From Paludibacteraceae bacterium (GTDB taxonomy: Bacteria > Bacteroidota > Bacteroidia > Bacteroidales > Paludibacteraceae): a DNA stretch of 64,000 bases. This document shows, in pieces, positions 8,590 through 46,758 of this stretch (positions are counted from its first letter, which is position 1; every line of letters starts with the position of its first letter). The stretch lies in assembly GCA_017478225.1 (NCBI GenBank), contig JAFVDX010000041.1, forward strand, positions 1-64,000. Reading direction: 5' to 3'. Under the pieces are notes generated by a model. The model was not told where the DNA came from. It was given only the letters and a program-made list of their open reading frames with translations, and searched no databases. Both the position numbers and the translations under genes were made by a program.

Positions 8590-8663
8590 GGTCCATTAGC
8601 TCAACTGAATAGAGTACCACACTACGGATGTGGGGGTTGCAGGTTTGAATCCTGCATGGATCA
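8590..8663 (+). tRNA. tRNA-Arg (anticodon ACG)
   Basis: The sequence folds as a full cloverleaf. The acceptor stem is GGTCCAT with ATGGATC, including one G-T wobble, and the discriminator is A. The D stem is GCTC/GAGT, the anticodon stem CCACA/TGTGG, the loop CTACGGA (anticodon ACG) and the T stem GCAGG/CCTGC. The 3' CCA is not encoded. The ACG anticodon, read as ICG after modification, decodes CGN arginine codons. Confidence 0.95.
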
Positions 8664-19300: not shown

Positions 19301-22300
19301 TGGGATTTCAATAATTCAAGCAATCCTGCTCCATGGAAATTGAAAAATCTGAATACTCTAATCACATCGGTATCCATAGCGAGTACGGTTGAGACAATTG
19401 GTAATTATGCATTTGACGGATGCAGTAATGTTACTGTATTTGATTTTGTGTATGATTCAAATGGGCATAACTCATTGATATCTATTGGCGAATATGCGTT
19501 CTTATCTTGTTCCGGTGCTTCTTTTAATAGTTTATGGGGCAGTTGGTCCGACAATTTGGAATCGGTAGGCAAACATGCTTTTGAAGATTGCGCTATGATA
19601 AGGAGTGTAGTTGTGCCTCGGAACATAACTTTTATGGGTGATTGGGTATTCAAAGGTTGTAGTGCGTTGAGTAGTGTAACATGGAATGCAATAAATTATA
19701 CCTCTACAAATATTAGTCAAACTATTAATCCTTTTTATGGAAATCGTTCCACAATTACATCGTTTGTATTTGGTCCTGAGGTAGAGATTATACCTAAATA
19801 CCTTTGTTATAAAATGACCGCTTTAACTACTATATCTTTTCCCAGCAGTGTTAGAGAAATAAATGAAGGGGCTTTTTATGGTTGCAATCGAATAGCAGGG
19901 ACATTAACAATTCCTAATACTATTAGTTTAATTGGAAATAGTGTATTTAGAGAGTGCACTGCGCTAACATCTTTGCTTTTTGAAAGTACATGTCAGTTAA
20001 CAGAAATATCCGATTATGCTTTTTATGGCTGTTCGAATTTGACATTAGGTTCTGCCTCTTTTCCTGCATCAGTTACATCTATAGGAAATTATGCTTTCTA
20101 TCAGTGTACTCATATTACAAGTCTGAGTTTCTCTACTACGAGCAGAGTAACCTCTATTGGTAATCGTGCTTTCTATGGTTGTGTAGGTCTTACTTCAGTT
20201 ACTTTTGGGGAAAGTAGCCGAGTAGAAAGTATCGGCGATTATGCTTTTTATGGTTGCAATGAAATTAGTAATTCAGGAATGAAATTGCCTTCAGGATTAA
20301 GATCACTCGGTGATTATGTGTTTTATGGTTGCACAAAAATTAAAGGAATAATGTATGTAAATTGCCCGTCTTTAACTGCTATTCCTAATAATGCTTTTAC
20401 AAATTGTAGTTCATTGACAGGATTGGATTTAACAGGGGCCACAAGTCTGACAACTATAGGAAACAATGCTTTTTCTGGCTGTGCCAACATTAAAGGCGAA
20501 ATTTATATACCATCTACTATAACTTCAATAGGTACAAAAGCCTTTTGGAATTGTTCTGCAGTAGAGTCAATGTATGTAGAGCCTACCACTGTTCCTGCTG
20601 CGACATCAAGCACAACAACTGGTACTTTTCAGGGCATGACTTCTACTATACCTGTTAGAGTGCCTGCCGATATGGTTTCTGCATATCAATCAGCCGCAGG
20701 ATGGGAATATTTTGATAATATACAAGCTTTTGCTGCAGGGCAGTGTGGTGATGATTTGTATTGGAAGATAAATTATAATACAAATACTTTGGTTATCACT
20801 GGCATTGGTGCTATGTATGATTATGGTGCAAGTACTAATCAGGCTCCATGGATATCTTATAAAACTTATTGGTCAAAAATATCTTTCCCAGAACAAATTA
20901 CAACTATTGGCAATTATGCTTTTTATAATTGTGCTAATCTTATCGGGTCAATTACATTCACTGCTAATTTAGTGTCCATTGGTACTCGCGCTTTCTATGG
21001 TTGCACAGAAATAAAAGGTCTTGATTTTAATAAGGCAGGCTCTCTAACAAATATAGGGGCATATTCATTTTACAACTGCAAGAATAGTAGTTTTACCACT
21101 CTTACCCTCCCCACTGCGTTGTCAACAATTGGTCAGGCTGCTTTCGGACTATGTTCTTCGCTAACTACGGTTACGATACCAGAAAATGTAACATCAATGA
21201 ATTGTAGTAGCGGAAATTATACTTTTGTTTCGTGTCCGAATATAACAACTGTAAATTGGAATGCAATTGCATGTAGTGATTTCACTCTTACTGGTGGGCA
21301 ATCTGGTGTAACATACTATACTCCATGGGGACTTAGCAAGTCCAGTATAACTAAATTTAACATTGGTTCAAATGTTAGAATCATACCTAAATATCTGTGT
21401 CAAGGTCTAACAAGTATAACAACTATATCACTTGGAGATAGCATTCGTGAAATACATGAAGGTGCTTTTCTTGGATGTTCGGCATTGACTGCTGTTACAT
21501 TGCCACAGAATTTAACGACATTGGAATCTTCTGCATTTAAAAATTGTAGTGGTATAAGCACATTGGATATGTCGCATTCTTCAAGCCTATCAACTATTGG
21601 AATAAGTGCTTTTGAGGGATGTTCGGCTGTAGATGGAGTCTTATATATACCTGAGAATGTAACCTCTATAGGTTCAAATGCTTTTAAGAATTTTAGTCTT
21701 GTAGATACTATATATGCAATACCTGCAACGCCACCAACGGCATATTCATCTACATTTACCAATATGGTGAAGACCATACCTGTAGTGGTGGCTGACAATG
21801 ATATAAAAGCATTATATCAAGCTGCAACAGGATGGGAAGAATTTACTAATTATGTTATTATAACTTTTTCCGGTCAGTGTGGTGATAATCTTTATTGGGC
21901 GCTAAATCCTGCCAGTGGAATTCTTAATATAACAGGAACAGGTGCAATGTGGGATTTTAATTACACGAGTACTAATCTTTCTCCTTGGTATAGTTTTAGA
22001 AATCTCGTTCATGAAGTATTTGTCGCTGAAGGTGCCACTTATCTGGGAAATTATGCATTTAGAGAATGTAAAGATATGAGATATATAAGTTTGCCGGCTT
22101 CAATAACTTCTATGTCTGCAAGTGTGTTTAGTATAACTCCTAAATTAAAGGACTATTCTTATGCCGGAACATTACAACAATGGTTAGCAATAGATTTCCT
22201 GGGTAATAGTGGTAATCCTCTTTATTGTACTCAAGGTAAATTGAATATTGAAGGTGAGTACATAACAGAATTAGTTATTCCTGAAGGTTGTACAAAAGTT

Positions 22301-24157
22301 AAAAAGTTTCAATTTACAAAATGTAAAGGGCTGACAAGTTTAGTTCTCCCAAGTACATTAGCTGAATTAGAATCTAATGCTTTTTACGATTGTGTAGGTT
22401 TAACAGATATTTATATTTATGCGCTAAACCCGCCTATTTTACCCTCAAGTAATGGAGCCGTATTTAGTACAACACTTATTAAATCAACCGTATTGCATAC
22501 GATGTGTGCTGAAGTAGAATCGTTATACAAGACTCTAACTTCTTATTCTGACCACTGGGGAAAATTTACTCATTTTGAATATATGAATGATTATTGTGTT
22601 GAAATTGTAGTGTCAACTGATTCTGATATGTCTGATATTATAAACACTGAATTACCTGTAAATATTAGGGTTGAGCCGGAAGTAATACTTACGATGGATG
22701 ATGTTGTTGGTGCAATCAATATAAATGATATTATTCTTGAACCCACATCGCATGTCAGTCTTTTAAGTAATGCAACATATAGCATAAATAACCTTATAGT
22801 ACAGCGTAGGGGTGATGAAACCAACGACGAAGTGGCAACTGCTGATTTGCAAGGCTCGATGACGGCACAAAACCTAATCCTTGATTTTACTCTCGATAAC
22901 AGCCGTTGGTTTGCATTCTCATTGCCACAATCTGTTGCTGCTTCGTCGGTTACTTACTCTGATGGCACCGCCCTTAGGCCTGATGTTGATTACTACGCTA
23001 TGTATTTCAATGGCGAAAGCCGTGCAACAAACGGATATAGCGCAAGTGGCGACAACTGGCGGTGGCTGACGGGGGGAGATATAGTGGCGCACAGAGGGTA
23101 TTTGTTAGGTCTGCCAGATGGCGTTTCGGAGAAAACGCTGCGTTTCACTATGCAGAATCCGAATCTTACTCAGACGGAAGATAAGAATATCACGGTCAGT
23201 GAATATGCTTCCCAAGTAGCATCTAATGCAGGATGGAACATGATTGGTAATCCGTACTTGCAGCCATATCAAAACTCTGAGACGCAGATGCAAATAGGTG
23301 ACGAAGACCTGATGTCGGTGATGACTTTCGCTGTCAGCGGCGAGCACTTGAGTTATACCTCTGAGTTAGTGAACGATGTAGAGTGGCAACCTTTCAGTGC
23401 TATGTTTATCCAAGCACCTGCTACAGGCTCGCTCGTATTTGACCACTCGTCAGCGCGGCGTAGTATCGTTAGCCGAAGACAAGGCGAGAAAACACCGACA
23501 AATTCACTTCGTCTTGAACTTGCCAATACTCAGGCAAAAGATCGTATGACCTTTATCACAGGCGATTTCGAAAATTCGGAGTATCGTATAGGTGTTGATA
23601 TGGCTAAGTGGTTCAACGACTCGTATAAGACTCAACCAGCACCGACACTTTATAGCATGAAAGGAAATATAAATATGACGATGCACGCCCTTGGAAAGGA
23701 TGAGTTACATGATATTCCAATAGGTATATTTGCTCCGCGGGCAGATGATTATCTGTTCTCAATCAGTCACGATGACAGTTTCGGTCAGGTATTGCTCTAT
23801 GATGCACTTGCCGATGTGGTTACAGACCTCAAGACAACCGCTTATCCGTTCTATCTCTATGCCGGTAGTTGCAGCGACCGCTTCTTTATCTCTGCAACTC
23901 TAAAAAACGATGAGCAGGATACGCCTACTTACATGGAAAATACAGAGCAGAAAGTGAAAATAATAACCGAAGGTTTATCAATCCGTTTGCTCAATCTGCC
24001 TCAAACGACCATAACTATATTTGATACTACAGGAAAACAAGTTACTAAACAATTTGTGACAACAGACACTAAAGTGATGTTGCCTCAAAGCGGGATGTAT
24101 CTTGTTAGTTATGAGGATAATGGTAACCCCCAAACACTCCGTTGCATCGTTAAGTAA
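16346..24157 (+). CDS. Giant BspA-like leucine-rich-repeat surface protein
   Basis: This is a 2603-residue protein. A signal peptide occupies residues 1-26. Residues 27-2070 hold dozens of LRR_5 (BspA/TpLRR) repeats with the pattern Ile-Gly-(Asn/Asp)-Tyr-Ala-Phe-x-Gly-Cys. Six modules each open with a Cys-Gly...Gly-x-Gly-Ala-Met...Pro-Trp header, near residues 27, 295, 659, 958, 1465 and 1842. From about 2075 a different, GC-richer part follows, ending in a T9SS-type sorting domain (Ile-Thr-Ile-Phe-Asp-Thr-Thr-Gly-Lys). BspA-like proteins act as adhesins or host-binding proteins. A run of eight C at 16401-16408 lies within the signal-peptide codons. Confidence 0.9.
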   Translation: MKRISFFLVLIALIISANTPPAKLSAATSYSLSTDNKTLTITGTGAMTNYTSSNYTDRPWNSYATTITKIVISSGVTAIGDYAFQGMTAVSEIEYEADVTVNSIGNYSFYGCSGLTSIDIPSSVVTIGERAYRGCNNVAINSVTIPESIAALGDQAFRETNIILVYWNARRCNGPTISTSYGYLTNPFYGVLENITDFIFGENVEVIPTYLCYQMTGITEVVIPSEVISIGNFAFSGCTSLAEVHLQPTTPPTLGGDYVFPTAATIFIDNLSSTSSYQTAWSGNTCVSQIADVVGGTCGESATWRFYNGTLTISGSGRMTNFANINTVPWKDKRSSISNIVIEDGITSIGAYSFYNCSTAVSIRIPASVDSIANNAFYNCKFTDKVYYEGTLAQWCAVQMNGSTANPFYYQYSGSSAAPKFRINGVEQSVLNIPEGVSKIGSYCFYGLTNITSVTIPTSVATIGQRAFYNCTGLATLIFSETATLETIETYAFYGNTALTSLTLPASIKVIEERAFSGCSAITTIDFSKATKLTQIGSYAFFKTSALTAIDLRNLSELTTIGNYAFSAGTSDNTTTVGFLYFPNKVASIGNYAFNYRKGITGIVIMNTSTSIITATSTSFSNFTTTIPVYVNSEPVATAYKSATGWSGFTNYVFDNTIEFECGSPTLSDLTAKLDVRTGALTFTGSGAMKNFTTSSRPGWYSYQSVLKSVTFGNVTAIGNYAFDGCSGLIGTITITNKITSIGNYAFRNCTGIPGLTFNNTTALTTIGNYAFSGCSSITSSIKLPASITSLGTYAFSTCKQLSGVTFEDGWQLASLPNYLFNNCYNLSGTIAIPEAVTTIGSNAFANCSTAVSLNLSRATALTTINDRAFAGCTGLDGTIVFPASMTTIGTYAFNNCSSIDEIIILKTSGTITASSDYTFNNMASDIPVRVATASLKNTYASATGWKHFTDISVGLTVTGQCGDNLQYSLSLSDGSMSITGTGAMWDFNNSSNPAPWKLKNLNTLITSVSIASTVETIGNYAFDGCSNVTVFDFVYDSNGHNSLISIGEYAFLSCSGASFNSLWGSWSDNLESVGKHAFEDCAMIRSVVVPRNITFMGDWVFKGCSALSSVTWNAINYTSTNISQTINPFYGNRSTITSFVFGPEVEIIPKYLCYKMTALTTISFPSSVREINEGAFYGCNRIAGTLTIPNTISLIGNSVFRECTALTSLLFESTCQLTEISDYAFYGCSNLTLGSASFPASVTSIGNYAFYQCTHITSLSFSTTSRVTSIGNRAFYGCVGLTSVTFGESSRVESIGDYAFYGCNEISNSGMKLPSGLRSLGDYVFYGCTKIKGIMYVNCPSLTAIPNNAFTNCSSLTGLDLTGATSLTTIGNNAFSGCANIKGEIYIPSTITSIGTKAFWNCSAVESMYVEPTTVPAATSSTTTGTFQGMTSTIPVRVPADMVSAYQSAAGWEYFDNIQAFAAGQCGDDLYWKINYNTNTLVITGIGAMYDYGASTNQAPWISYKTYWSKISFPEQITTIGNYAFYNCANLIGSITFTANLVSIGTRAFYGCTEIKGLDFNKAGSLTNIGAYSFYNCKNSSFTTLTLPTALSTIGQAAFGLCSSLTTVTIPENVTSMNCSSGNYTFVSCPNITTVNWNAIACSDFTLTGGQSGVTYYTPWGLSKSSITKFNIGSNVRIIPKYLCQGLTSITTISLGDSIREIHEGAFLGCSALTAVTLPQNLTTLESSAFKNCSGISTLDMSHSSSLSTIGISAFEGCSAVDGVLYIPENVTSIGSNAFKNFSLVDTIYAIPATPPTAYSSTFTNMVKTIPVVVADNDIKALYQAATGWEEFTNYVIITFSGQCGDNLYWALNPASGILNITGTGAMWDFNYTSTNLSPWYSFRNLVHEVFVAEGATYLGNYAFRECKDMRYISLPASITSMSASVFSITPKLKDYSYAGTLQQWLAIDFLGNSGNPLYCTQGKLNIEGEYITELVIPEGCTKVKKFQFTKCKGLTSLVLPSTLAELESNAFYDCVGLTDIYIYALNPPILPSSNGAVFSTTLIKSTVLHTMCAEVESLYKTLTSYSDHWGKFTHFEYMNDYCVEIVVSTDSDMSDIINTELPVNIRVEPEVILTMDDVVGAININDIILEPTSHVSLLSNATYSINNLIVQRRGDETNDEVATADLQGSMTAQNLILDFTLDNSRWFAFSLPQSVAASSVTYSDGTALRPDVDYYAMYFNGESRATNGYSASGDNWRWLTGGDIVAHRGYLLGLPDGVSEKTLRFTMQNPNLTQTEDKNITVSEYASQVASNAGWNMIGNPYLQPYQNSETQMQIGDEDLMSVMTFAVSGEHLSYTSELVNDVEWQPFSAMFIQAPATGSLVFDHSSARRSIVSRRQGEKTPTNSLRLELANTQAKDRMTFITGDFENSEYRIGVDMAKWFNDSYKTQPAPTLYSMKGNINMTMHALGKDELHDIPIGIFAPRADDYLFSISHDDSFGQVLLYDALADVVTDLKTTAYPFYLYAGSCSDRFFISATLKNDEQDTPTYMENTEQKVKIITEGLSIRLLNLPQTTITIFDTTGKQVTKQFVTTDTKVMLPQSGMYLVSYEDNGNPQTLRCIVK
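16401..16408 (+). repeat. C8 homopolymer tract in the signal-peptide region
   Basis: Eight consecutive C residues lie 55 bases after the ATG of the giant surface-protein gene, encoding part of Asn-Thr-Pro-Pro-Ala. Gain or loss of one C would shift the frame of nearly the whole protein. It is a candidate contingency tract. Confidence 0.8.
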
Positions 24158-34761: not shown

Positions 34762-34842
34762 AATGTCTATTATGTTGAATAGGGCAAAGGTAGAGGAATT
34801 TTGGAAATTGAACAAGAGAAAAATGAAAAATAATTAAAGAAA

Positions 34843-35070
34843 ATGGATAAATGGTATAAAAATATAGATAAATGGTGTAAAAATATAGATAAATGGTGTA
34901 AAAATATGGATAAATGGTATAAAAATATGGATAAATGGTATAAAAATATAGATAAATGGTATAATAATATGGATAAATGGTATAATAATATGGATAAATG
35001 GTGTAAAAATATAGATAAATGGTATAATAATATGGATAAATGGTATAAAATATGGATAATGGTATAAATC
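34843..35070. repeat. 21-bp tandem repeat array, about 11 copies
   Basis: Ten units of ATGGATAAATGGTATAAAAAT type start at 34843 at exact 21-base intervals (the tenth is one base short), then a decayed eleventh. Units differ mainly at positions 3 (G/A), 14 (A/G) and 18 (A/T). The plus frame reads as heptapeptides (Met/Ile-Asp-Lys-Trp-Tyr/Cys-Lys/Asn-Asn). All three variable positions change the amino acid, so the array behaves as a non-coding minisatellite rather than a conserved protein. Confidence 0.9.
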
Positions 35071-35166
35071 AAAGGTTAAACGGCTTATTTTAGGCGAAAG
35101 AACGGCATAATTAGATGGACAGACGAAATGAAAGATAAAATCAAAGATTATAAGACTAAAAAAATA

Positions 35167-35310
35167 GAGAAAACTAACAGAAACCGAAGGAAACTGACAG
35201 AAACCGAAGGAAACTGACAGAAAACAACAGAAAACGAAGGAAACTGACAGAAAATGAAGAAAACTGACTGAAAAATGAAGAAAAGTGACAGAGACTGATA
35301 GAAAATGAGA
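35167..35310. repeat. Degenerate 20-bp tandem repeat array
   Basis: About six imperfect copies of a unit like AAACTGACAGAAACCGAAGG follow each other, two of them near-identical (35182-35221). Later copies drift to GAAAATGAAG forms. The sequence is purine-rich on the plus strand. Confidence 0.8.
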
Positions 35311-35342
35311 ATATAAAATGAGAGAATACCGTAATTTTAGAC

Positions 35343-35373
35343 TTGACAAAGGGACAAAAATTTTGTATCTTTG
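35343..35373 (+). promoter_or_regulatory. Promoter upstream of the 32-bp array and the 104-residue gene
   Basis: TTG at 35343-35345 and TATCTTTG at 35366-35373 have a 20-base spacer. A transcript starting near 35381 would carry the whole 32-bp repeat array in its leader before the ATG at 35610. Confidence 0.75.
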
Positions 35374-35422
35374 CAATAGATTTGATAAGCATAGAACAAA
35401 TCGCAATATAAATAGGCTAATG

Positions 35423-35565
35423 GAACGCAAACCATAGGCCGAATAGAATGAATAGAACGGAAACCACAGGCCGAATAGAACGAATAGAACGGAAACCATA
35501 GGCCGAATAGAATGAATAGAACGGAAACCACAGGCCGAATAATCAGTATAAACCATAAGCCGTCA
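35423..35565. repeat. 32-bp tandem repeat array, four copies
   Basis: Units start at 35423, 35455, 35487 and 35519, exactly 32 bases apart, with the core GAACGGAAACCACAGGCCGA. Alternate copies carry CATAGG or CACAGG, so the higher-order unit may be 64 bases. A partial fifth copy follows. The array lies in the predicted leader of the next gene. Confidence 0.9.
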
Positions 35566-35609: not shown

Positions 35610-35924
35610 ATGAAAGTGAAATTTATTGCACCCGTGCTTTATGCACAAGGCAAAATCTGCAAACACGAAAACAGTTATTTTGCCCACAATTCCAAAACCG
35701 GCGCTAACTATATGGTGCGCGTATGCAACCCGCGTACTTCAGCGTTTACCGCCAACGAACTTGCAAAACAACTCTTATTCAAGACCGCCGTGCAGAACGC
35801 ACTTGCAGATATGCGTAAGAGCGGCGAGGAAAGAGAGGCTATTATCGCTTCCTTCAAGGCACAAAACCAATACAAGACTCTGTTTGGTTATTTGGTTGCC
35901 GTGAATTACAAGAAATTGTCGTAA
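35610..35924 (+). CDS. Hypothetical small protein at the left edge of the phage-like region
   Basis: This is a 104-residue basic protein with no recognised domain. It has Ser-Lys-Thr-Gly-Ala-Asn-Tyr-Met-Val-Arg-Val and a C-terminal Tyr-Lys-Thr-Leu-Phe-Gly-Tyr-Leu segment, and a helical middle (Asn-Glu-Leu-Ala-Lys-Gln-Leu-Leu). No signal peptide is seen. It has its own promoter and terminator, so it forms a single-gene unit. The higher GC and regular codon use resemble the phage-like genes to its right, so I place it with them; function is unknown. Confidence 0.7.
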   Translation: MKVKFIAPVLYAQGKICKHENSYFAHNSKTGANYMVRVCNPRTSAFTANELAKQLLFKTAVQNALADMRKSGEEREAIIASFKAQNQYKTLFGYLVAVNYKKLS

Positions 35925-35962
35925 AAACAGACTGAAAAAGTAGTTATTGAGTGTGATGAGAA

Positions 35963-35993
35963 AGAGAAGTCGAGAGATTTCTCTTTTTTTTTG
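35963..35993 (+). terminator. Terminator after the 104-residue gene
   Basis: AGAGAAGTC pairs with GATTTCTCT through one G-T wobble, with a 4-base loop, and is followed directly by a run of nine T. It lies 38 bases after the stop. Confidence 0.8.
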
Positions 35994-36014
35994 CATTTTT
36001 TTTGTTGTATAGTG

Positions 36015-36045
36015 TTGTATATATCAAAATAAAGGCTTACCTTTG
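36015..36045 (+). promoter_or_regulatory. Promoter of the leader/small RNA unit
   Basis: TTG at 36015-36017 and TACCTTTG at 36038-36045 are separated by 20 bases. The predicted start near 36052 is followed only about 100 bases later by a perfect terminator. Confidence 0.8.
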
Positions 36046-36051
36046 TAGTGA

Positions 36052-36475
<424 letters not shown>

Positions 36476-36500
36476 TAGTTATAAACTAAACATTAAGAAT

Positions 36501-38372
36501 ATGAAAGAGAGTGTTTTTCAGCAATTTGCCGAATTTATAGGGCATAAGGTGAAAGCGCAAAAGTTGTCAGATGCCGAATTGATGGCAGAGGCAAGACATA
36601 AAGCGCAAATGTATTTTTCAGGGGCTGCAAGTGGTACCGTGGAAGATCTGACAGGCGATGACGATGAGGATAACGAGGATAAGATAGAGGAACCTAAAGC
36701 AGAGGAACCTGCAGAAGAACCCAAGGCAGAGGAACCTAAAGCAGAGGAACCTGCAGAAGAACCCAAGGCAGAGGATCCTAAAACAGAAGACCCCAAGACA
36801 GAGGAACCTAAGACAGAGGAACCTGCAGAAGAACCCAAGACAGAGGAACCCAAGACAGAGGAACCCGAAACAGAGGATACAGACGAAAAGCGTCTGAGTG
36901 CCTTAGAAGAACAAGTTAGAGTAATGGCGAATGCTATAAATGCGCCAAAAACCATAAACAAACCAAAAACAATTAGTATGAAGAAGAGTTATTTTGGAGC
37001 AACAGACACCGCCGTATTAAAGGGTGCACAATTACAGGAGGCTTTTGGCAAGCATATCGACGGCCTGCAAAAGCGCTTTGCAAGTTTGAATACAAACAAC
37101 TTGCTTTCTGCAATGAATTACAAGTCGATGATTAAAGGTGAAGGCGCAAGTATTGAGTTTGATATGCCTGAGAGTGTAGCAGATCAGTATTTGGTTCGCC
37201 GTCAAGACTTGCTTATCGCTTATCTGAGAGAGTTGCCGACAGTGACAAACATATTCCCGGTACACAGCGGCGTACAGGATAAAGAAGCAGCACCTGAGTT
37301 GTATGTAGGTGGCTTGAGCCAAGCGTGGACAGGCAAAAATCCTACTGCAAAAGGCAACTTCCTGCTTTCTGCTACCATCTATGAGGTAAAAGATGTATTT
37401 GCTTACATAGACCTTTATAATATGAAGGATATTGAAAAGCAATATGTCGGGTACCTGAATACCGAGGGTGCAACGGCTGTTAAATGGTCGTTCGTAGAAT
37501 GGCTTATAGTCTATATTGCAAAACAACTCATTTCCGAGCAGAACTACCGCCGTGTGAGTGGTACTTATGTAGAGGGTGCAGACAATTATCTGAACGCTGC
37601 CGATGGTGTAATCGCCGCCATTCGCAAAGCCGTTGATGACAACCGCGTATTACCATTTGAAATAGGTGGTTATACTCAGGCTACTATCCTCGATGTGTTT
37701 GAGGCTATGTGGGCACAGGCTAACTTGCATCTGCAGAATATCGACGGCTATAAGTTGTATGCCAATGCACGCCACAAACAATGGTACATTGCAGCATACC
37801 ACGCTAAATACGGCCAGACTTCTGCCGAGTTCTCACAAAACAGTATGTACAACACTTTGGCACCTGAAAACATTATTTGGGTACCAAATATGCCTATCAA
37901 TTCCACATTGATTTTCATTACCGAAGAAGGTAATATTGAACTTCTTGAGGATAAAGCAGGTGAAATGCTTGCATTCCGTTTCGTAGAGAAAGCCTTTGGT
38001 GTAGAAATCACTTCACAATGGCGTGAAGGTGTATTCATCAAGAAAACAGGTAAGAAGTTTGACACTGCAGAGGAACTTGTTGCAAACAACTACGAAAATC
38101 AGTTCTTGTTTGTCAATTCACCTGAGCAAGCGTTTACCACCGGCTCTTATTTGGCACAAGCCCTTGATTGGACAGTAAACGCCGATGTGGACATCACCAA
38201 CAGCAAAGTTATTCCGGGACAAGTGTATTCTATAGCCAATGCAGGTAACGACACTGTTACTATCACCGGTATAGGTGAAAAGGGTGAAGAACTTGCATCA
38301 GGCGAAAAGATTTATGTCTATCCTGAAATAGTGGATGGCGTTGCTACAGGCAAATTTGTAGTGCTCGCTTAA
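36501..38372 (+). CDS. Phage major capsid-like protein with acidic linker
   Basis: This is a 623-residue protein. Residues 1-60 are helical. Residues 62-130 are a Glu-Pro-Lys-Ala/Thr repeat, strongly acidic. From M160 (Met-Lys-Lys-Ser-Tyr-Phe-Gly-Ala) a globular region of about 460 residues has features of a capsid protein, and the end resembles a small beta domain. A leading scaffold-like part before a mature coat is common in phage capsids, so cleavage near residue 150 is possible. The ATG at 36501 was chosen over a frame running through the 9-bp array. The capsid call rests on overall resemblance and neighbours; no search could be run. Confidence 0.6.
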   Translation: MKESVFQQFAEFIGHKVKAQKLSDAELMAEARHKAQMYFSGAASGTVEDLTGDDDEDNEDKIEEPKAEEPAEEPKAEEPKAEEPAEEPKAEDPKTEDPKTEEPKTEEPAEEPKTEEPKTEEPETEDTDEKRLSALEEQVRVMANAINAPKTINKPKTISMKKSYFGATDTAVLKGAQLQEAFGKHIDGLQKRFASLNTNNLLSAMNYKSMIKGEGASIEFDMPESVADQYLVRRQDLLIAYLRELPTVTNIFPVHSGVQDKEAAPELYVGGLSQAWTGKNPTAKGNFLLSATIYEVKDVFAYIDLYNMKDIEKQYVGYLNTEGATAVKWSFVEWLIVYIAKQLISEQNYRRVSGTYVEGADNYLNAADGVIAAIRKAVDDNRVLPFEIGGYTQATILDVFEAMWAQANLHLQNIDGYKLYANARHKQWYIAAYHAKYGQTSAEFSQNSMYNTLAPENIIWVPNMPINSTLIFITEEGNIELLEDKAGEMLAFRFVEKAFGVEITSQWREGVFIKKTGKKFDTAEELVANNYENQFLFVNSPEQAFTTGSYLAQALDWTVNADVDITNSKVIPGQVYSIANAGNDTVTITGIGEKGEELASGEKIYVYPEIVDGVATGKFVVLA

Positions 38373-38381
38373 TACTCAAAC

Positions 38382-38444
38382 AGAAATTTGGTGTGTAGTG
38401 CTTTTTCCGGAATTATTTTTACACTATGCACTGAATTTCTTTTG
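38382..38444 (+). terminator. Long G-U-rich hairpin after the capsid-like gene
   Basis: Arms at 38382-38400 and 38422-38440 pair over 19 bases in RNA, with four G-U wobbles and no mismatch, around a 21-base loop, followed by TTTG. It lies 10 bases after the stop. The long stem suggests a terminator or a 3' stabilising structure. Confidence 0.7.
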
Positions 38445-38477
38445 TAACTATTATTACAAACTTAAAGGTTAAGAATT

Positions 38478-39020
38478 ATGTTAAAGAGTATAAAAAGAGT
38501 AGAGGGTAATGATGCTTCTCTACATACAAAAAATAGCGATGAGTTGTATTTGGGTCTGATTAGCGATGTAAATCGCAGTTCGTTCGAAGCAAACGAAACT
38601 ACAGGCAAAGCAACTCTCGCAATGCAGACCGGTAAGCATCTTGTTCGCTTAGGCTGTAAGGCTGCAAGTGTAGTACCCACAGTAGAAGCAGGCGAAACTC
38701 CGCTTACAGAGAAAGCCACCGTTGCCGCTGTTTTGGATGGAGCCGAGGCAAAAACTGTACAGGCTGTAAGGCGGATGCGTGGTAGCCGTGTAATTGTAGT
38801 GTGGAAGCGCTGTATCGACGGCCGTATGTTCCTTGCAGGTACACCGTGCTCAGATGGTATGCGTATGCGCGTAACTTCTATAGGTGCACAGGATGGCGGC
38901 GAAAACGGTATTGCACTTAGTTTCGAAGGCGGCGAATGTCCGGAGAGTTATTTCGAACTTACCAACACGGCCGACGAAATCGACGCAATGGTAGAAAGCG
39001 AAAGTGGAACTGAAGAATAA
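38478..39020 (+). CDS. Hypothetical phage-like structural protein
   Basis: This is a 180-residue protein without signal or membrane segments. It has a basic, Lys/Arg-rich middle (Arg-Met-Arg-Gly-Ser-Arg-Val-Ile-Val-Val-Trp-Lys-Arg) and an acidic C terminus (Glu-Ser-Glu-Ser-Gly-Thr-Glu-Glu). No family was recognised. Its place directly after the capsid-like gene, between two terminators, suggests a head- or tail-associated protein such as a tube or completion protein. That is inference from position. Confidence 0.6.
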   Translation: MLKSIKRVEGNDASLHTKNSDELYLGLISDVNRSSFEANETTGKATLAMQTGKHLVRLGCKAASVVPTVEAGETPLTEKATVAAVLDGAEAKTVQAVRRMRGSRVIVVWKRCIDGRMFLAGTPCSDGMRMRVTSIGAQDGGENGIALSFEGGECPESYFELTNTADEIDAMVESESGTEE

Positions 39021-39093
39021 TACCATAATAATTTGTGTTTCATAGGTGTCACGAAGTTAAACTAACTTTATTTTTTCAACATTCCATAGTTGG

Positions 39094-39132
39094 ATGGGAT
39101 TGTGGATTGTGAAATTCGCAATCCCATTTTTA
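39094..39132 (+). terminator. Terminator after the 180-residue gene
   Basis: ATGGGATTGTG (39094-39104) pairs with CGCAATCCCAT (39117-39127) with one G-T wobble and a 12-base loop, followed by TTTTTA. Confidence 0.82.
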
Positions 39133-39174
39133 TTTACTTAGAACTATTTAGAATAACCAAAAACAATTATAACA

Positions 39175-39531
39175 ATGGAAATACTTATTTCAATACTTGC
39201 CGCTATAGGCGGTGTAAGTGGACTGGTGGCTTTGTGTTCTTTGCCGTGGCTTGTGAAGAAGAACAAGGCCGACGCCAATATCAAATCGGCCAGTGCAGAG
39301 GATGCTGTATTGCAAAACTACGACAAATATGTACTCAGACCGATGCAGGCTAACTATACCCTGATAATGAAGAATTATCAAGAACTGTTATCAGCCGCTT
39401 TGTCTGCTAAGAATTGCACATACGCTTCTACTGAAGAGTGCCCCGTAATAAGGCGAATGAATGATGCTAAAATCATTGAGTCGCAAAAGGATCTGATACC
39501 GACAGTTCCGGGAGAGGAGGGTGTATTATGA
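39175..39531 (+). CDS. Small membrane protein of the phage-like cassette
   Basis: This is a 118-residue protein with one N-terminal transmembrane helix (about residues 3-26) and a soluble helical tail with two cysteines (Lys-Asn-Cys and Glu-Glu-Cys). The size and layout fit a holin, spanin-like or other lysis or membrane component, but no family was recognised. Its stop overlaps an ATG (TTATGA) that once began the next gene; that copy is now dead and an intact copy follows at 39739. Confidence 0.55.
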   Translation: MEILISILAAIGGVSGLVALCSLPWLVKKNKADANIKSASAEDAVLQNYDKYVLRPMQANYTLIMKNYQELLSAALSAKNCTYASTEECPVIRRMNDAKIIESQKDLIPTVPGEEGVL

Positions 39532-39665
39532 AAGTACGATAAAGAACCGACGGCCGCAAACTGACAATAAAACGGGCTACAAGTGCTAATTTTGCGCCAA
39601 AACAGGAAAAACCCGCGTTGATGGAGCGCACTAAGACGCAAAAAGAGCAGGAATTTCCTTATATT
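39511..39665 (+). pseudogene. Decayed first copy of a 155-bp duplication
   Basis: These 155 bases repeat those at 39722-39876 at an offset of exactly 211 bases. They cover the last codons of the membrane-protein gene and the first 45 or so codons of the next gene. In this copy the ATG (39528) is followed by TAA after four codons, and other bases have changed, so it cannot encode the protein. The intact copy keeps the reading frame. Confidence 0.85.
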
Positions 39666-39738
39666 AAATATCTGTTAGCGAAATTAAAAAAAATGTGTTT
39701 TTTTAACTTAAAATAATTCCTGGAGAGGAGGGTGTATT

Positions 39739-40095
39739 ATGAAAGTGCGACAAGGAACCGACGGCCGCAAACTGACAATAAAGCGGGCTGCAAGTGCTAA
39801 TTTTGCGCCAAAACAGGAAAAACCCGCGCTGATGGCGAACCATAAGACGCAAAAAGAGCAGGAATTTCCTTATATTGAATGGTCGAACTTAGACAGGAGC
39901 ACCACAAAAGAAGCCGTGTTACTGTACAACGAAAGGGTGACTACATACAAGGAAATGTCGCTTTTGCAGCAAAGACTTAGCGAGGATCCTAATTTGGCAG
40001 ACCAAATATGCAAGTTAGACGCGCGAAACCGACTCGCAGACCGCAAACTACAGGAATTAAACAACCAACTCAAATTGGTAACCGAAAAACAGTAA
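39739..40095 (+). CDS. Hypothetical phage-like cassette protein
   Basis: This is a 118-residue soluble protein. The first 45 residues are basic (Arg-Lys-Leu-Thr-Ile-Lys-Arg-Ala-Ala). A long helical, coiled-coil-prone C terminus follows (Leu-Gln-Glu-Leu-Asn-Asn-Gln-Leu-Lys-Leu). No family was recognised. The 5' part is duplicated upstream as a dead copy. It may be a scaffold or assembly factor, by composition and position only. Confidence 0.6.
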   Translation: MKVRQGTDGRKLTIKRAASANFAPKQEKPALMANHKTQKEQEFPYIEWSNLDRSTTKEAVLLYNERVTTYKEMSLLQQRLSEDPNLADQICKLDARNRLADRKLQELNNQLKLVTEKQ

Positions 40096-40267
40096 TTATC
40101 TAAACTTTCCCACATCGAAGAGAATAAAATTTAATTTTGGGTAATTTTGGATAATTTTTGACAACCTAAAAATCAAGAAAAACGAAGTTTTTTGTCTAAT
40201 TCGTTCAATTAGTAGATAAAGAAAAATACAATTCGTTGACTTTCTGATATGGAAAACTTTACTAATT

Positions 40268-40504
40268 ATGAAGATTGACTATGATAAATTAAGGGATGGC
40301 TTTAAGTTGGTGTTTGTTACCAAAAGCAAACCACACGAAGTGCGCAAATACGAAGACTGCTTGCTTCGTTCCGTTCCGGATGAGATAGAAGATAAGTCTG
40401 TGTTTTATTTTTCCGTTCGTAAAGCGGCATCCGACGGACAACTCAGATATCAGCCCCGTCAATGTAAGAAATGTTTGATTATAGAACTAACCCCGCACAA
40501 ATAA
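40268..40504 (+). CDS. Small hypothetical protein
   Basis: This is a 78-residue protein beginning Met-Lys-Ile-Asp-Tyr-Asp-Lys-Leu and ending in a basic Cys-Lys-Lys-Cys segment that might bind a metal or nucleic acid. No family was recognised. The next gene starts one base after its stop, so the two are co-transcribed. About 170 AT-rich bases with several TAATTTTG-like boxes precede it and may hold its promoter. Confidence 0.6.
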   Translation: MKIDYDKLRDGFKLVFVTKSKPHEVRKYEDCLLRSVPDEIEDKSVFYFSVRKAASDGQLRYQPRQCKKCLIIELTPHK

Positions 40505-40505
40505 T

Positions 40506-41105
40506 ATGTACAACAAACTACGACTTCTGCAGCCTGAAGTAATAGATTATGTACGCAAAACAGGCCGTGCGCCGGTAACAATAGAGTTGCCGCCGGAAAT
40601 GGTTGAGTACATAAACCAGTTGAACCGCGCTTGTATTTATGTAGGGCAGGAAAAGAGTCTGAGAAAAGCGGCTCAGAGATTGCAAGATGACTACCCTAAT
40701 CTAAGCATTCGCACCTGTCAGAGCCGCGCGGCCGATGCTATTAAGTACTTGTACGACTTCAACGACTTAAGCGCCAATCAATGGCGGCTGTTCTATGCAG
40801 ATATAATGATGGAACGCGCAAAGATAGCAGACGAAAAGGGAGATATAGCAGAGGCGCGGCGCTGTATAGAGAAAGCGGCCGAATACACTGAAGCAGCATC
40901 TAAAGACCGCGTGGACAAAGACTTGACACAGTACCGGCCACAACTACTTTCACCCGATGTAACAACCGAGCGAATGGGCATTGAAGGTGCAAGCGGCCTT
41001 AAACAACTCAAAGAGCGGGCATTGAGTATTATCGATAGCCGTAAAGACTTATCACCTGAAGAAAAAGCCCGGCTACAAAAAGAAATAGAAGCAGAATTAG
41101 GCTAA
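40506..41105 (+). CDS. Possible terminase small subunit-like protein
   Basis: This is a 199-residue helical protein. An internal region (Ser-Leu-Arg-Lys-Ala-Ala-Gln-Arg-Leu-Gln-Asp-Asp-Tyr-Pro-Asn-Leu-Ser-Ile-Arg-Thr) could be a helix-turn-helix, followed by a long acidic-basic helix and a charged C terminus. That layout resembles phage small terminases, which bind packaging sites, but the match is weak and no large terminase gene is present. It ends 2 bases before the large tail-like gene. Confidence 0.4.
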   Translation: MYNKLRLLQPEVIDYVRKTGRAPVTIELPPEMVEYINQLNRACIYVGQEKSLRKAAQRLQDDYPNLSIRTCQSRAADAIKYLYDFNDLSANQWRLFYADIMMERAKIADEKGDIAEARRCIEKAAEYTEAASKDRVDKDLTQYRPQLLSPDVTTERMGIEGASGLKQLKERALSIIDSRKDLSPEEKARLQKEIEAELG

Positions 41106-41107
41106 CT

Positions 41108-43435
41108 ATGCGAATATATCTGAAAAATAATATAGCAAAACAATTAGACACAGATCCGCAGGTGGCATTAAACACCGTATTTGTCAGTCCGTTTTTCGAA
41201 CAAGGCGGATCGTGGACTCTACCATTGACTCTGAAGCATACGCCGCGTAATGATATTTTCTTTAATTACGCCGGCCGGTTCTATGCCGCTCAATCAGCAC
41301 AAGCACGCCGCTTTGAGGTGACAGTCGAGGCGCAAACGCTTGTGCTGAGTGGCATTCTCACCTTGCAAAGTGCATCCGCAAACGGCTACGAAGCCGGTAT
41401 CACATTCCAAGACGCTAATTATTACAGCCGATTTGGAGCGCTTACACTGCAGGACTGTATGAAAGGTCTGTATTACACACCTTTTGCAGCCAATAAGCCC
41501 GATCTTAATTCTACCGATGTAATATACAAAGGAAACACCGACGACGATTATAAAACCATTATCGATAGACGCAAAGATGTACTTCGAGTGCTCAATGCCC
41601 GGCTTAATGCAGACAATCAGATGACAGAGTCGGTTTTGGACCCTGAAGTAAACAATTTCTTTATATTCCCGGTTAAGACTAAAGACAAAAATATCGACTT
41701 AAACGATATTTGCAATTACAGCCCTGATTTTAGCATAAGCACCGACGAAATAGGCAGCCAAAACCGCACAACTAACTTAGCAACCGACAACTCGCAAAGC
41801 CTGCAACTAAGCGCGCAATATCTAAAGGGAGATAATTATGGGTATGGTGTGACAGTATTTTTGCGCCTGAAATATGTTATAGAGCAAGTCTTTGCAAAAA
41901 TAGGTTATACTGTTTCTTTCGATTTCGGCACGGCCGCTGAGCAACAGGCTTTGCGCCGACAGGCTAACCGTGCCACCGGAAAAATCGAGTCCGCCCCGTG
42001 CTTTTATGCTATTGCAAAATACTTCGATCGTCTTTGCGTACTTAATAATACCGCTGATAGTATTATGCCGGGATATATTCCTTACGAAGCACTTGTACCT
42101 AATACTACAGTAACCGACTTCCTGCAGACTCTTTTCAGTGAGTTTGGCTTTGCGTTTTTCGAGGATGCACCGATGCACTGTACAATGAGAATGATGGCAA
42201 ATGTGCTCTCGTCACAGCATACCATATTCCCTGCTACAATCAAAGAAGATAGTATAGAAGTTAGTTTTGCAGATCCTGCAGGGTTGAAATTACAGCATAA
42301 ATCAGTTAAGCCGGACGGGTGGAACGAAGACGAGGATATGGAAGCGTTTTTTACCAAATACCCCGCCGCGCCGCTGCTTGTCAGGTACAACTGTACCGAC
42401 TCGGGCCGATACTACAATATTGCCGATTATATGGTTAATAGCAGCGCTATCGATTTACCCATACGCCGCCGTACAGGTCCCAGAAACCCCGCCGGAATTG
42501 GTGCTCGAGATTTAGACAGTTTCAAGCAATGGGAAGATCCGCTTATCAATTATAATGGCTTAGGTGATATTCCTTTGCCCGATGGATATCCCGATGAACC
42601 CGAACCGATTATTTCAGGTGTGGGCAAACTGAGATATGTAAACGGGTGGCATACCGACGCCTACAGGCCTGCAATATGCAGCGGGCTTAGTTCGTTCGAC
42701 ACTTGGGGTAATATCCGTGTGTGCTCAGAACCAGGACACCTACCATTGACGGCGCCCGATAGTTTCTGTTACCGCCCCGATCAAGATCTTGCAGAACAAG
42801 AACTCAAGTCAGAACTGACAGATTGCCCCGTCGATGTACTGCTTTGCCACAGCAAATACGCAGGGGGTAATGTGAATTATATGCCCGTGCCCGCGCCGAT
42901 GATGGATGGTATAAGAAATGTCACTTGTAATGTAAAAGTAGGTAGTGAAGAACAAAAACAGTCGGAATGTCCGCTCGCATTCTGTTTTTATGCCGGCCGT
43001 TATACTTCTTCTTGCGTGCACTTTACCTTGGTGGCAAACGAAGATGGTACCTACAGCCGAGGTGCAGCCATAGGACAAAGCGACCAAATAAGAGTGCCGT
43101 ATGGAACGCGCTCATATAACATAGACAAAGACTATTGCAAAGATCCTAACACCTACGAAGATGAACAAAACCCGTATCACAGCGGGTATGGTGCGTGGAG
43201 ATTAAACACCCGTTTTGCAGTGGAGTTCTTCCATAAAGAATACAGTGAGTTACTCGAGAAAGGAATGCACACTATTACTTTTGAAGCAGATCTTACATAT
43301 TATCAAATAAGCAATTTGCGTTTTGACACGATTTATTACAGTGGTATGTACCGTTTCTTGATAAAGCAAATAGAAAGCAGTCTGACAGAAAACCAACTCA
43401 GACAGAAAACCACCATAACAGCCTACTTGATTTAA
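41108..43435 (+). CDS. Large tail-like phage protein
   Basis: This is a 775-residue protein rich in beta-type sequence and Asp/Asn/Tyr, without signal peptide or transmembrane segments. The N terminus (Leu-Asp-Thr-Asp-Pro-Gln-Val-Ala-Leu-Asn) resembles a base-plate or tail-tip start. The C terminus ends in a Thr-Thr-Ile-Thr-Ala-Tyr-Leu-Ile beta strand. It is probably a tail-tip, hub or fibre component. It is the largest gene of the cassette and begins 2 bases after its neighbour. Family assignment is inference. Confidence 0.5.
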   Translation: MRIYLKNNIAKQLDTDPQVALNTVFVSPFFEQGGSWTLPLTLKHTPRNDIFFNYAGRFYAAQSAQARRFEVTVEAQTLVLSGILTLQSASANGYEAGITFQDANYYSRFGALTLQDCMKGLYYTPFAANKPDLNSTDVIYKGNTDDDYKTIIDRRKDVLRVLNARLNADNQMTESVLDPEVNNFFIFPVKTKDKNIDLNDICNYSPDFSISTDEIGSQNRTTNLATDNSQSLQLSAQYLKGDNYGYGVTVFLRLKYVIEQVFAKIGYTVSFDFGTAAEQQALRRQANRATGKIESAPCFYAIAKYFDRLCVLNNTADSIMPGYIPYEALVPNTTVTDFLQTLFSEFGFAFFEDAPMHCTMRMMANVLSSQHTIFPATIKEDSIEVSFADPAGLKLQHKSVKPDGWNEDEDMEAFFTKYPAAPLLVRYNCTDSGRYYNIADYMVNSSAIDLPIRRRTGPRNPAGIGARDLDSFKQWEDPLINYNGLGDIPLPDGYPDEPEPIISGVGKLRYVNGWHTDAYRPAICSGLSSFDTWGNIRVCSEPGHLPLTAPDSFCYRPDQDLAEQELKSELTDCPVDVLLCHSKYAGGNVNYMPVPAPMMDGIRNVTCNVKVGSEEQKQSECPLAFCFYAGRYTSSCVHFTLVANEDGTYSRGAAIGQSDQIRVPYGTRSYNIDKDYCKDPNTYEDEQNPYHSGYGAWRLNTRFAVEFFHKEYSELLEKGMHTITFEADLTYYQISNLRFDTIYYSGMYRFLIKQIESSLTENQLRQKTTITAYLI

Positions 43436-43462
43436 TCAGATCGATCAGACAATCAGAATACC

Positions 43463-43816
43463 ATGGATATCCCACAAACCCTACAATGGACACGCGGCCG
43501 ATTGAAAGAAGCGCAACTGCAAGCCGCCCGCAATGGCAAAGCCACGCTTGAAGCACGGGGGTTTGATTATGATTATATAATCAATCAAATAAACAGTGCA
43601 GAAACAAACGCCATCTCGAGCGACTTTTATTTGTCAATACCTATCGACAAACGACTTCGTTTTTTGGATATGAAGCGTATTGCAGGTGTTCCGGTCTATA
43701 ACCGCCCGGTGTGGGGTGTGCTGATGGGTGGAGGGGACTCTCTAAAAACACGGCTCTTAGAGCAATTAGGAAACGAAGCCCTGCAGACTCTTAAAAACTC
43801 GATACAAGCAAACTAA
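43463..43816 (+). CDS. Hypothetical phage-like cassette protein
   Basis: This is a 117-residue soluble protein with a helical N terminus (Arg-Gly-Arg-Leu-Lys-Glu-Ala-Gln-Leu-Gln-Ala-Ala) and a Gly-Gly-Gly-Asp-Ser segment near the end. No family was recognised. It lies between the tail-like gene and the tape-measure gene, a place where tail-assembly chaperones or tube proteins often occur. That role is not shown by the sequence. Confidence 0.55.
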   Translation: MDIPQTLQWTRGRLKEAQLQAARNGKATLEARGFDYDYIINQINSAETNAISSDFYLSIPIDKRLRFLDMKRIAGVPVYNRPVWGVLMGGGDSLKTRLLEQLGNEALQTLKNSIQAN

Positions 43817-43830
43817 TCAGACTACTTAGA

Positions 43831-44130
43831 TCACCCCGTAAAACCCCGAATAATCATTACCCCGATTATTGTTTCACCCACAACACCCGCTATAAGCAGC
43901 AGCGCAATAGGAAAAAGCAGATAATAACATATCTTTGAGAAAAGAGAGTCCATTGCAAATATACCCATACCGCCCGTATGTTGTTGCCAGCGGCTGAAGT
44001 CAGGCCTAAAAATACCACCGCCGTACTTATAAGCAGAGCGGAATATAAACAAGCACCATATCAGAAACAGCATACACACGGCGGCAAAGATATACAGAAA
44101 AACCTTACTCAAAAAATAATTTAATAGCAT
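43831..44130 (-). CDS. Small antisense-oriented membrane protein in the cassette
   Basis: This is a 99-residue protein on the opposite strand to all its neighbours, with two transmembrane helices (about residues 8-30 and 66-92) and a short aromatic loop between them. It occupies almost the whole gap between the two plus-strand genes. Its ATG lies 9 bases from the tape-measure ATG, divergently. No family was recognised. It could be an immunity, exclusion or cargo gene, or a spurious frame. Confidence 0.5.
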   Translation of the reverse strand: MLLNYFLSKVFLYIFAAVCMLFLIWCLFIFRSAYKYGGGIFRPDFSRWQQHTGGMGIFAMDSLFSKICYYLLFPIALLLIAGVVGETIIGVMIIRGFTG

Positions 44131-44139
44131 ATTTTTTTT

Positions 44140-45120
44140 ATGGCAAAAAAACTTACAAATGATGAAGTGAACCTAATGGTCCATATAAATGCTTCAGATG
44201 CCCAGCAAAACCTTACTGCAATGCAGATGGAAGCAGGCCGTTTGTCAGCAGCTCTCAAACAGACCACACAGGCTATTAAAGATAATGACAAAGAGGCGCG
44301 CGCGCTTGAGAAACAGATGGCTAAGTTAGCCGAAAAAGGCAAAATCAATACCGAGCAATACAAACAACTCGAAGCCCAATACCAAAGAAATTTCCAACGC
44401 AGCGCTCAACTTACCAAACAGGCATCCGACCAGCAAAAAGCACTCGATAATAATGCCCGGGCACAAAAGGCACTAACCGACAATATGAAATTGTCGGAAA
44501 TGACAATGGTACAACTGCAAAAGCGACACCAGGAACTTGCCAAGGCACAGAAAAATGCCGTGCCTAATAGCGATGAGTGGAAAAACCTTACCAAACAACT
44601 GCAAGAGGTGGACTCGCAGATGCAAGAAAACACTATCCGCTCTCAGACTATGATGGAAGCACTAAGTAGCATACCATCACCGATGTCTAAAATAGGGCAG
44701 GTAGTGCAGAGTATCAAAAAAGGATTTGATGTACTCAAAGCACACCCGTTCTTGATGATAGGGGCTATAGTAGGGGGTATTATCAAAATGATAAAGATGG
44801 GTATCGAGGGCAGCGACGAACTAAGCACTAAGTTTGCCGGCGTAATGGGATATATCAATGAAGGTCTGAAACAGTTTACCAACATAGTTGCCCGCGCCGG
44901 TGAAGCCGTTGCACGCTTCTTTACAGGCGACTTCTCAGGCGCTAAAGACGCCCTGAAAAACATAGGCAGCATAACAGCAGGTATGCAGGCTGCAGGCAAA
45001 GCGGCGTATGATGCAGCCATACTCCAGGACAAATACAACGACATTATCAATCGCAACAATGATCTGACAAAGATAAACAACGCCGAAATAGCGCAACTTC
45101 AACAACCCGTATTTCAGTAG
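44140..45120 (+). pseudogene. Phage tail tape-measure protein, truncated at a junction
   Basis: The 326-residue product starts with Met-Ala-Lys-Lys-Leu-Thr-Asn-Asp and a coiled-coil region (about 20-180) full of Gln, Ala, Lys and Leu heptads. A hydrophobic patch follows (Phe-Leu-Met-Ile-Gly-Ala-Ile-Val-Gly-Gly-Ile). This is the usual front part of a tape-measure protein, which is often 700-1500 residues long. After residue 320 the frame runs into foreign sequence and stops. The bases from 45098 on are the interior of an MBOAT gene in another frame, so the rest of this gene is missing. Confidence 0.7.
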
Positions 45121-45805
45121 AGATATAGCAGAGTTCTGGCGCAGATGGCATATATCGCTCACCACTTGTTTTCGAGATTATGTATATATTCCTCTCGGCG
45201 GCTCTCGTCCCGAGATTCCAACCAATATCAAGAATCCCGACCGCTACAAGAAATGGATTATTGTGCGCAACACCTTTGTTATCTTCCTTTTGTCGGGCTT
45301 CTGGCACGGTGCCAACTGGACATTTATTGCATGGGGTGCGTATCATGCACTTTTATTCCTACCTCTCATTCTACTCGGCAAGAACCGTAAATATACAAAC
45401 CAAGTTGCCGAAGGTCGATTGCTACCCACATGGAAAGAGTGCGGACAAATGCTCTTTACTTTTATTCTTGTAGTAATTGGTTGGATAATCTTTAGAGCAA
45501 CAGGAATGCCGTCTTTACTCCATTATATCGAGGGAATGTTTCAATGGGATACTCTCCGCACAAGTTACCGTTTCTTCTTACCAGATGAAAATTGGATATG
45601 GTCAACGAACTTATACATTTTTATTATGCTAATAGTAGAATGGATACAACGAAACAAACAACATGGATTAGATTTTACAGAACGCAAAATTAAGTATTTT
45701 CGTATATTCTGCATCGTTTTATATGTGATTTTGGCATTTCTTATTGAATATTATTTTTGCCTTTCAATTGAACATCCTAATGCATTTATTTATTTCCAAT
45801 TTTAA
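45098..45805 (+). pseudogene. 3' half of an MBOAT O-acyltransferase gene (5' end lost)
   Basis: From 45098 a frame of 236 codons, without any start, reads Asn-Asn-Pro-Tyr-Phe-Ser-Arg-Asp-Ile-Ala-Glu-Phe-Trp-Arg-Arg-Trp-His. This is the conserved core of AlgI/MBOAT membrane O-acyltransferases. The catalytic-site region Phe-Trp-His-Gly-Ala-Asn-Trp and several transmembrane helices follow. The N-terminal half is missing and replaced by tape-measure sequence. Its normal role would be acetylating a surface or secreted polysaccharide with the SGNH-like protein encoded next. It should be inactive here. Confidence 0.85.
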
Positions 45806-45809
45806 TACT

Positions 45810-46758
45810 ATGAAAAGATTCTTATTGAAATTTACTATATTTCTTGTCTTAAATTTAACAACTACTTCAATTGTATGGAAATGGATGGCTATACAGCCGA
45901 ATAACTACTCCCGGTTATCTCACGAAATAAACATAAAAAACCAACTTGAGCGTATTCAGCAAATTTATGAACCTAAAATAATTTTTATCGGAGGAAGTGG
46001 ATGCGGTTTTGGTTTGTGCTCACCTCTAATAATGGAATATTATCAAATGCCGGTAGTAAATACTGGTACTAATGCCGCTTTAGGATTAAGGTTACAACTT
46101 TTGCTGTTTAAATCATATATTTCGGAAAACGACATAGTAATTGTTATTCCTGAATATAACCACTATTTTGGAAATTTTTATATGGGTACTGAATCAGTAA
46201 TACGAATTCTTTCCTCACACTATACTGAAGGATATAAACTACTAAATTTCAAACAACAGATGCACTTGCTAAAGTATGTTCCTATTGCATATCGGGATGC
46301 TAAATATGCTCGTTCGATAAAAGCAGTTGATGTGAAAAATAGTCCATACTCGGCTCAATATCTTAATGAATATGGGGATACAGAAATGTATGATCAACGT
46401 AAGTATCCTATTAGTAGTAAAAGAGATGGTATGGGAGATAATAAGGGCTTGCAAAGAGAAACTATTATATTAATTATTGCGCGATTTCAACCGATATTGT
46501 ATAAGTAAAGGCGCAACAATGCTAGTTTTTCCTCCTGCATATAGAAATTACGAATTTGTTCCTAAAAAGGAAAAAATAGATGAATTATGGAAAGTCCTTG
46601 CTATCAATGATCTTCCCATTGTATCATTTCCTACAAATTATTCATTGCCAGATAGTTTATTTTATGATACAGCATACCATCTGACATACGAAGGAGTAAT
46701 CTTAAGAACAAATAAACTGATAACGGATTTAGATTCATTAGGTATAATTTCTCATTAA
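45810..46758 (+). pseudogene. SGNH/DltD-like acetylation partner with a frameshift
   Basis: Two overlapping frames join to a protein of about 315 residues. The first has an N-terminal membrane anchor (Phe-Leu-Leu-Lys-Phe-Thr-Ile-Phe-Leu) and Gly-Gly-Ser-Gly-Cys-Gly-Phe-Gly, a likely nucleophile loop. The second continues Arg-Asp-Phe-Asn-Arg-Tyr-Cys and ends with Tyr-Asp-Thr-Ala-Tyr-His-Leu-Thr, a plausible Asp/His site. An extra base between 46474 and 46482 separates them. Such proteins pair with MBOAT enzymes in polysaccharide O-acetylation. The gene starts 4 bases after the MBOAT stop. Confidence 0.7.

Follow-up and report, generated by a model that had tools for sequence, protein, structure and literature searches.

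In the 64,000-nucleotide stretch of DNA analyzed here (the window), a block of phage genes that begins at ~35.6 or ~36.5 kb runs to ~45.1 kb, where it meets the 3′ half of an MBOAT (AlgI-like O-acyltransferase) gene. By BLAST, the genes from ~36.5 to 45.1 kb have counterparts among the capsid, small-terminase-position, tail, and tape-measure protein (TMP) genes of Porphyromonas phage phage032a_KCOM2801 (hereafter phage032a) and of prophages in genomes of the same bacterial genus. The features are as follows, with the basis for each in parentheses.

35610 to 45090, forward strand: prophage relic as a whole (BLAST to phage032a and same-genus prophages)
35610 to 35924, forward strand: small ORF, putative member of the relic (position in the block)
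36132 to 38372, forward strand: major capsid ORF, homologous part at ~36.9 to 38.3 kb (BLAST)
38478 to 39020, forward strand: relic ORF (BLAST set of the phage block)
39739 to 40095, forward strand: relic ORF with a phage032a homologue (BLAST)
40268 to 40504, forward strand: relic ORF (BLAST set of the phage block)
40506 to 41105, forward strand: ORF in the terminase small-subunit position (BLAST)
41108 to 43435, forward strand: distal tail-like ORF (BLAST; weak phage032a match)
43463 to 43816, forward strand: relic ORF, the gene preceding the TMP gene (BLAST)
44140 to 45120, forward strand: truncated tail tape-measure gene, 326 aa (PHROGs and phage032a TMP matches)
45091 to 45102, forward strand: joint, where both homologies overlap, GCGCAACTTCAA (TMP and MBOAT alignments)
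45091 to 45805, forward strand: 3′ half of the MBOAT gene, start missing (PF03062 and genus homologues)
45813 to 46758, forward strand: SGNH-like partner gene, apparently split by a frameshift (sequence; C-terminal match to a same-genus locus, L024)

The tape-measure ORF opens with an ATG at 44140 and closes with a TAG at 45118 to 45120, 18 nt past the joint, and it returns PHROGs tape-measure matches (E = 7e-5). Residues 1 to 321 (to ~45102) align with the phage032a TMP at 32% overall, and the 35 residues just ahead of the joint (44998 to 45102) do so at 57%. Because this stronger match continues right up to the joint, the phage homology stops sharply rather than fading out, which bears out the claim of the initial annotation that tape-measure coding extends to about 45097. 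That annotation also held that both genes had lost one half, a description that suits the MBOAT gene (~290 of ~520 aa lost) but understates the damage to the TMP: intact tape-measure proteins in relatives are 1,065 to 1,454 aa long, only 326 aa are left here (including a few beyond the joint), and ~70 to 78% is gone. The TMP C terminus was sought across the genome's own 46-contig draft assembly and was not found; as this region is poorly conserved, failure to find it says less than failure to find the terminase and portal genes (see below).

Compared with intact homologues, the codons from 45092 onward read the conserved middle of MBOAT O-acyltransferases, starting at an invariant motif, and agreement with intact relatives at the DNA level begins at G45091, where several of them read ..ATGCGCAACTTCAACAACCC... 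The MBOAT frame does differ from that of the TMP, as had been noted from the sequence at the outset, although the homology begins 4 to 7 nt before the start then proposed (45098). What remains lacks ~290 N-terminal residues relative to intact same-genus homologues of 485 to 523 aa, and is 62 to 72% identical to the nearest of these from the invariant motif through the C-terminal FIYFQF. The PF03062 match covers only profile positions 223 to 299 of 337 (E = 3e-10). SGFWHGANW, including its conserved His, is kept; with the N-terminal half gone, the multi-pass domain is incomplete. The remnant also carries a W-to-C substitution at a position where Trp is invariant among the relatives compared, the sole unique change at such sites; this aside, its conserved sites are not enriched in changes. 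Searches with PF03062 and with the N-terminal half found one other MBOAT gene in the genome, an intact 638-aa frame on another contig (C44). We considered this gene as a source of the missing 5′ half and rejected it, since its N-terminal half is only 38% identical and is that of a paralogue within an intact gene.

As with the AlgI-like MBOAT genes elsewhere in the genus, an SGNH-type gene lies downstream. Here, however, the MBOAT is N-terminally truncated and has lost its invariant Trp, and the partner has an apparent frameshift near 46475 that divides it into frames at 45813 to 46508 and 46477 to 46758; its C-terminal half matches the gene that follows the MBOAT at L024. Together, the Trp substitution and the apparent frameshift suggest that the O-acetyltransferase operon is dead and, judging by the sequence, it looks not to have been so for long. 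The asnS operon, which is single copy and conserved across the genus, starts directly downstream of the MBOAT-SGNH remnant, so that the right side of the joint belongs to the host chromosome. In comparisons of synteny with relatives, the asnS operon alone is conserved, and no relative shows the ancestral arrangement. These features bear on whether the TMP-MBOAT unit might be functional phage cargo, that is, a phage-borne O-acetyltransferase. LPS-modifying genes are known in some temperate phages (PMC10367356), but the MBOAT remnant has neither its start nor its N-terminal membrane half, it is read in a different frame from the TMP, its partner is apparently frameshifted, and no TMP adjoins the intact MBOAT homologues of the genus. 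We therefore give this reading virtually no credence.

At the joint, protein and DNA comparisons place the overlap of the two homologies at 45091 to 45102, a stretch of ~12 bp (GCGCAACTTCAA) within which the two different reading frames meet. Under a simple model, a matched run of 9 to 12 bp at a random joint would have a probability of ~4e-5 to 1e-6. The MBOAT side of the shared stretch is seen in the DNA of relatives and the TMP side in protein only, no close parental TMP DNA having been found. A microhomology joint at GCGCAACTTCAA is plausible and fits the homology boundaries; the initial annotation, too, had placed the joint in a run suited to microhomology joining. A 14-nt repeat, GAGATATAGCAGAG, present at 40840 and 45120, was tried as a recombination site and rejected, as its position is not that of the joint.

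The relic left of the joint is not a complete phage. The reference phage, phage032a_KCOM2801, is Nixvirus pging00X of the family Nixviridae (BK068113; PMC12451628), and the relic resembles it in its capsid (36% identity), terminase-small-position gene (27%), and TMP N terminus (32%), in the homologue of the gene at 39739, and, weakly, in the tail gene that follows the TMP (26%); the gene preceding the TMP is matched via relatives. From the capsid gene to the terminase small subunit, the two broadly share the same gene order. In contrast to phage032a, the relic, of which ~9 kb is left, lacks the protease, terminase large subunit, portal, the rest of the TMP, the lysis genes, and the integrase. 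Moreover, the ORF at 41108 to 43435, whose homologue lies right after the TMP gene in phage032a and related phages, here precedes it, starting 3 bp past the small-terminase-position gene, where the terminase large subunit would be expected. Nixviridae integrate at the host tRNA-proline gene (PMC10367356); no such insertion site is present here, the only tRNA in the window being a tRNA-Arg at 8590, and the native ends of the relic have been lost. On these protein comparisons, we regard the relic as distantly related to Nixviridae. It seems improbable that it belongs to an undescribed relative of this family with a different module order (the post-TMP tail gene before the TMP), its remaining structural genes having been kept for some host use.

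Close phage relatives of the relic were sought in viral_contigs and genome_contigs, and none were found. Prophages that match its genes occur in three genomes of the genus (G096, G127, and G179), and two contigs of a fourth (G019) match partially. The same-genus prophages L042 and L043 to L046 (G179, G096, and G127) have related structural genes, but the order and strand of their modules vary, which suggests that modules have been heavily shuffled in this group of phages. Within the relic, 39506 to 39669 and 39717 to 39880 form a 164-nt partial duplication (92%) of a phage gene start, in which the first copy meets a stop after four codons and the second is the open gene.

Neither the terminase large subunit nor the portal was found anywhere in the assembly, in searches that included the phage032a terminase as a query; the terminases and portals of related phages detect each other at ~30% identity. 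A search of the genome with phrog_2 gave one weak and uninformative match, and the same search also matched 13 of 14 control genomes. A concatenated query (MBOAT N-terminal half, terminase, portal, and protease) likewise recovered no missing part from the genome. Its only other match, on contig C18, was to the protease portion of this query; it lies inside a 587-aa ORF, probably encoding a host SppA-like protein. The relic has capsid and TMP genes, whereas the whole assembly yielded neither a terminase large subunit nor a portal; it is a cryptic (defective) prophage. Cryptic (grounded) prophages with deletions carry a partial phage gene set, are abruptly truncated, and have lost neighboring host DNA; the relic, known here from one draft assembly, resembles them in these traits. 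Relics of this kind are common, and the finding is thus one of ordinary genome decay.

How the two truncated genes came together is best explained, we think, by a deletion in vivo through illegitimate recombination between the prophage and the neighboring O-acetyltransferase operon, both now dead; this we consider probable. The prophage, a distant relative of Nixviridae that was by then rearranged and without terminase, portal, and integrase, would have lain near the host MBOAT-SGNH operon. Illegitimate recombination at the short shared stretch (~12 bp, GCGCAACTTCAA) would then have removed the rest of the TMP gene, any phage and host DNA beyond it, and the MBOAT 5′ half, leaving two nonfunctional genes end to end. 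We infer both that prophage and operon were neighbors beforehand and that a single deletion in a living cell sufficed; such an event accounts for boundaries this sharp, for the brief shared stretch, and for the failure to find the missing parts.

Both sides of the phage block are truncated, its genes stand in a scrambled order when set against those of its relatives, and most of its ORFs are open. The truncation and scrambling would also suit two events, in which a phage piece inserted in or beside the MBOAT gene by transposition or abnormal integration and the MBOAT 5′ half and left phage part were lost later. We find this unlikely: phage032a has integrase genes, and insertion in its family is at tRNA-Pro rather than in coding genes (PMC10367356), no MBOAT 5′ half was found left of the relic, and the joint falls inside the tape-measure gene rather than at a phage end.

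The main rival is a chimeric metagenome assembly, in which phage and host contigs, or two distant host regions, were falsely joined. The initial annotation had left the choice between a large deletion and such a join, and the homology boundaries are consistent with that framing. The genome is a draft (2.19 Mb in 46 contigs, 96.7% complete), a second assembly of the joint was sought and none was found, the MBOAT fragment is barely decayed, and the bin has open phage ORFs but lacks essential phage genes, as if the rest resided in an unbinned contig. Indeed, the little-changed MBOAT remnant and the mostly open phage ORFs imply that either the event was recent or the join is artificial. Against a false join, the ~12 bp shared at the joint fall short of the usual length of an assembly k-mer, and both the MBOAT half-gene and its partner bear apparent lesions of their own. 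A chimera also predicts the MBOAT 5′ half at another contig end; we found it neither at any contig end nor elsewhere in the assembly. The check proposed at the outset, a search of the genome for the missing halves, thus recovered neither from the 2.19-Mb assembly, and neither the joint nor the TMP end turned up a second time. Empty searches of a 46-contig draft are no proof. Nonetheless, the absent parts, the apparent frameshift in the partner, the lost Trp, and a shared stretch below the usual k-mer lead us to favor a real deletion, with a false join possible but clearly less likely. Tandem repeats left of the relic, which resemble sequences found on further contigs of this genome, also counted for us in favor of a deletion.

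The main bearing is on annotation: the tape-measure and MBOAT ORFs should not be labeled as functional, and the site at 45091 to 45102 is useful for assembly checking. If real, the junction adds to the cases in which a prophage and a surface-polysaccharide gene have decayed together.

At 34835 to 35541 and 36197 to 36449, the left side of the relic is flanked by several short arrays of tandem repeats (21-bp, 20-bp, 32-bp, and CCGGAAAGG-type), and parts of this region are 70 to 86% identical to sequences on contigs C5, C21, C3, and C19 of this genome. Farther left, at 16346 to 24157, lies a 2,603-aa ORF with many leucine-rich-like repeats and, judged by eye, a BspA-like look.
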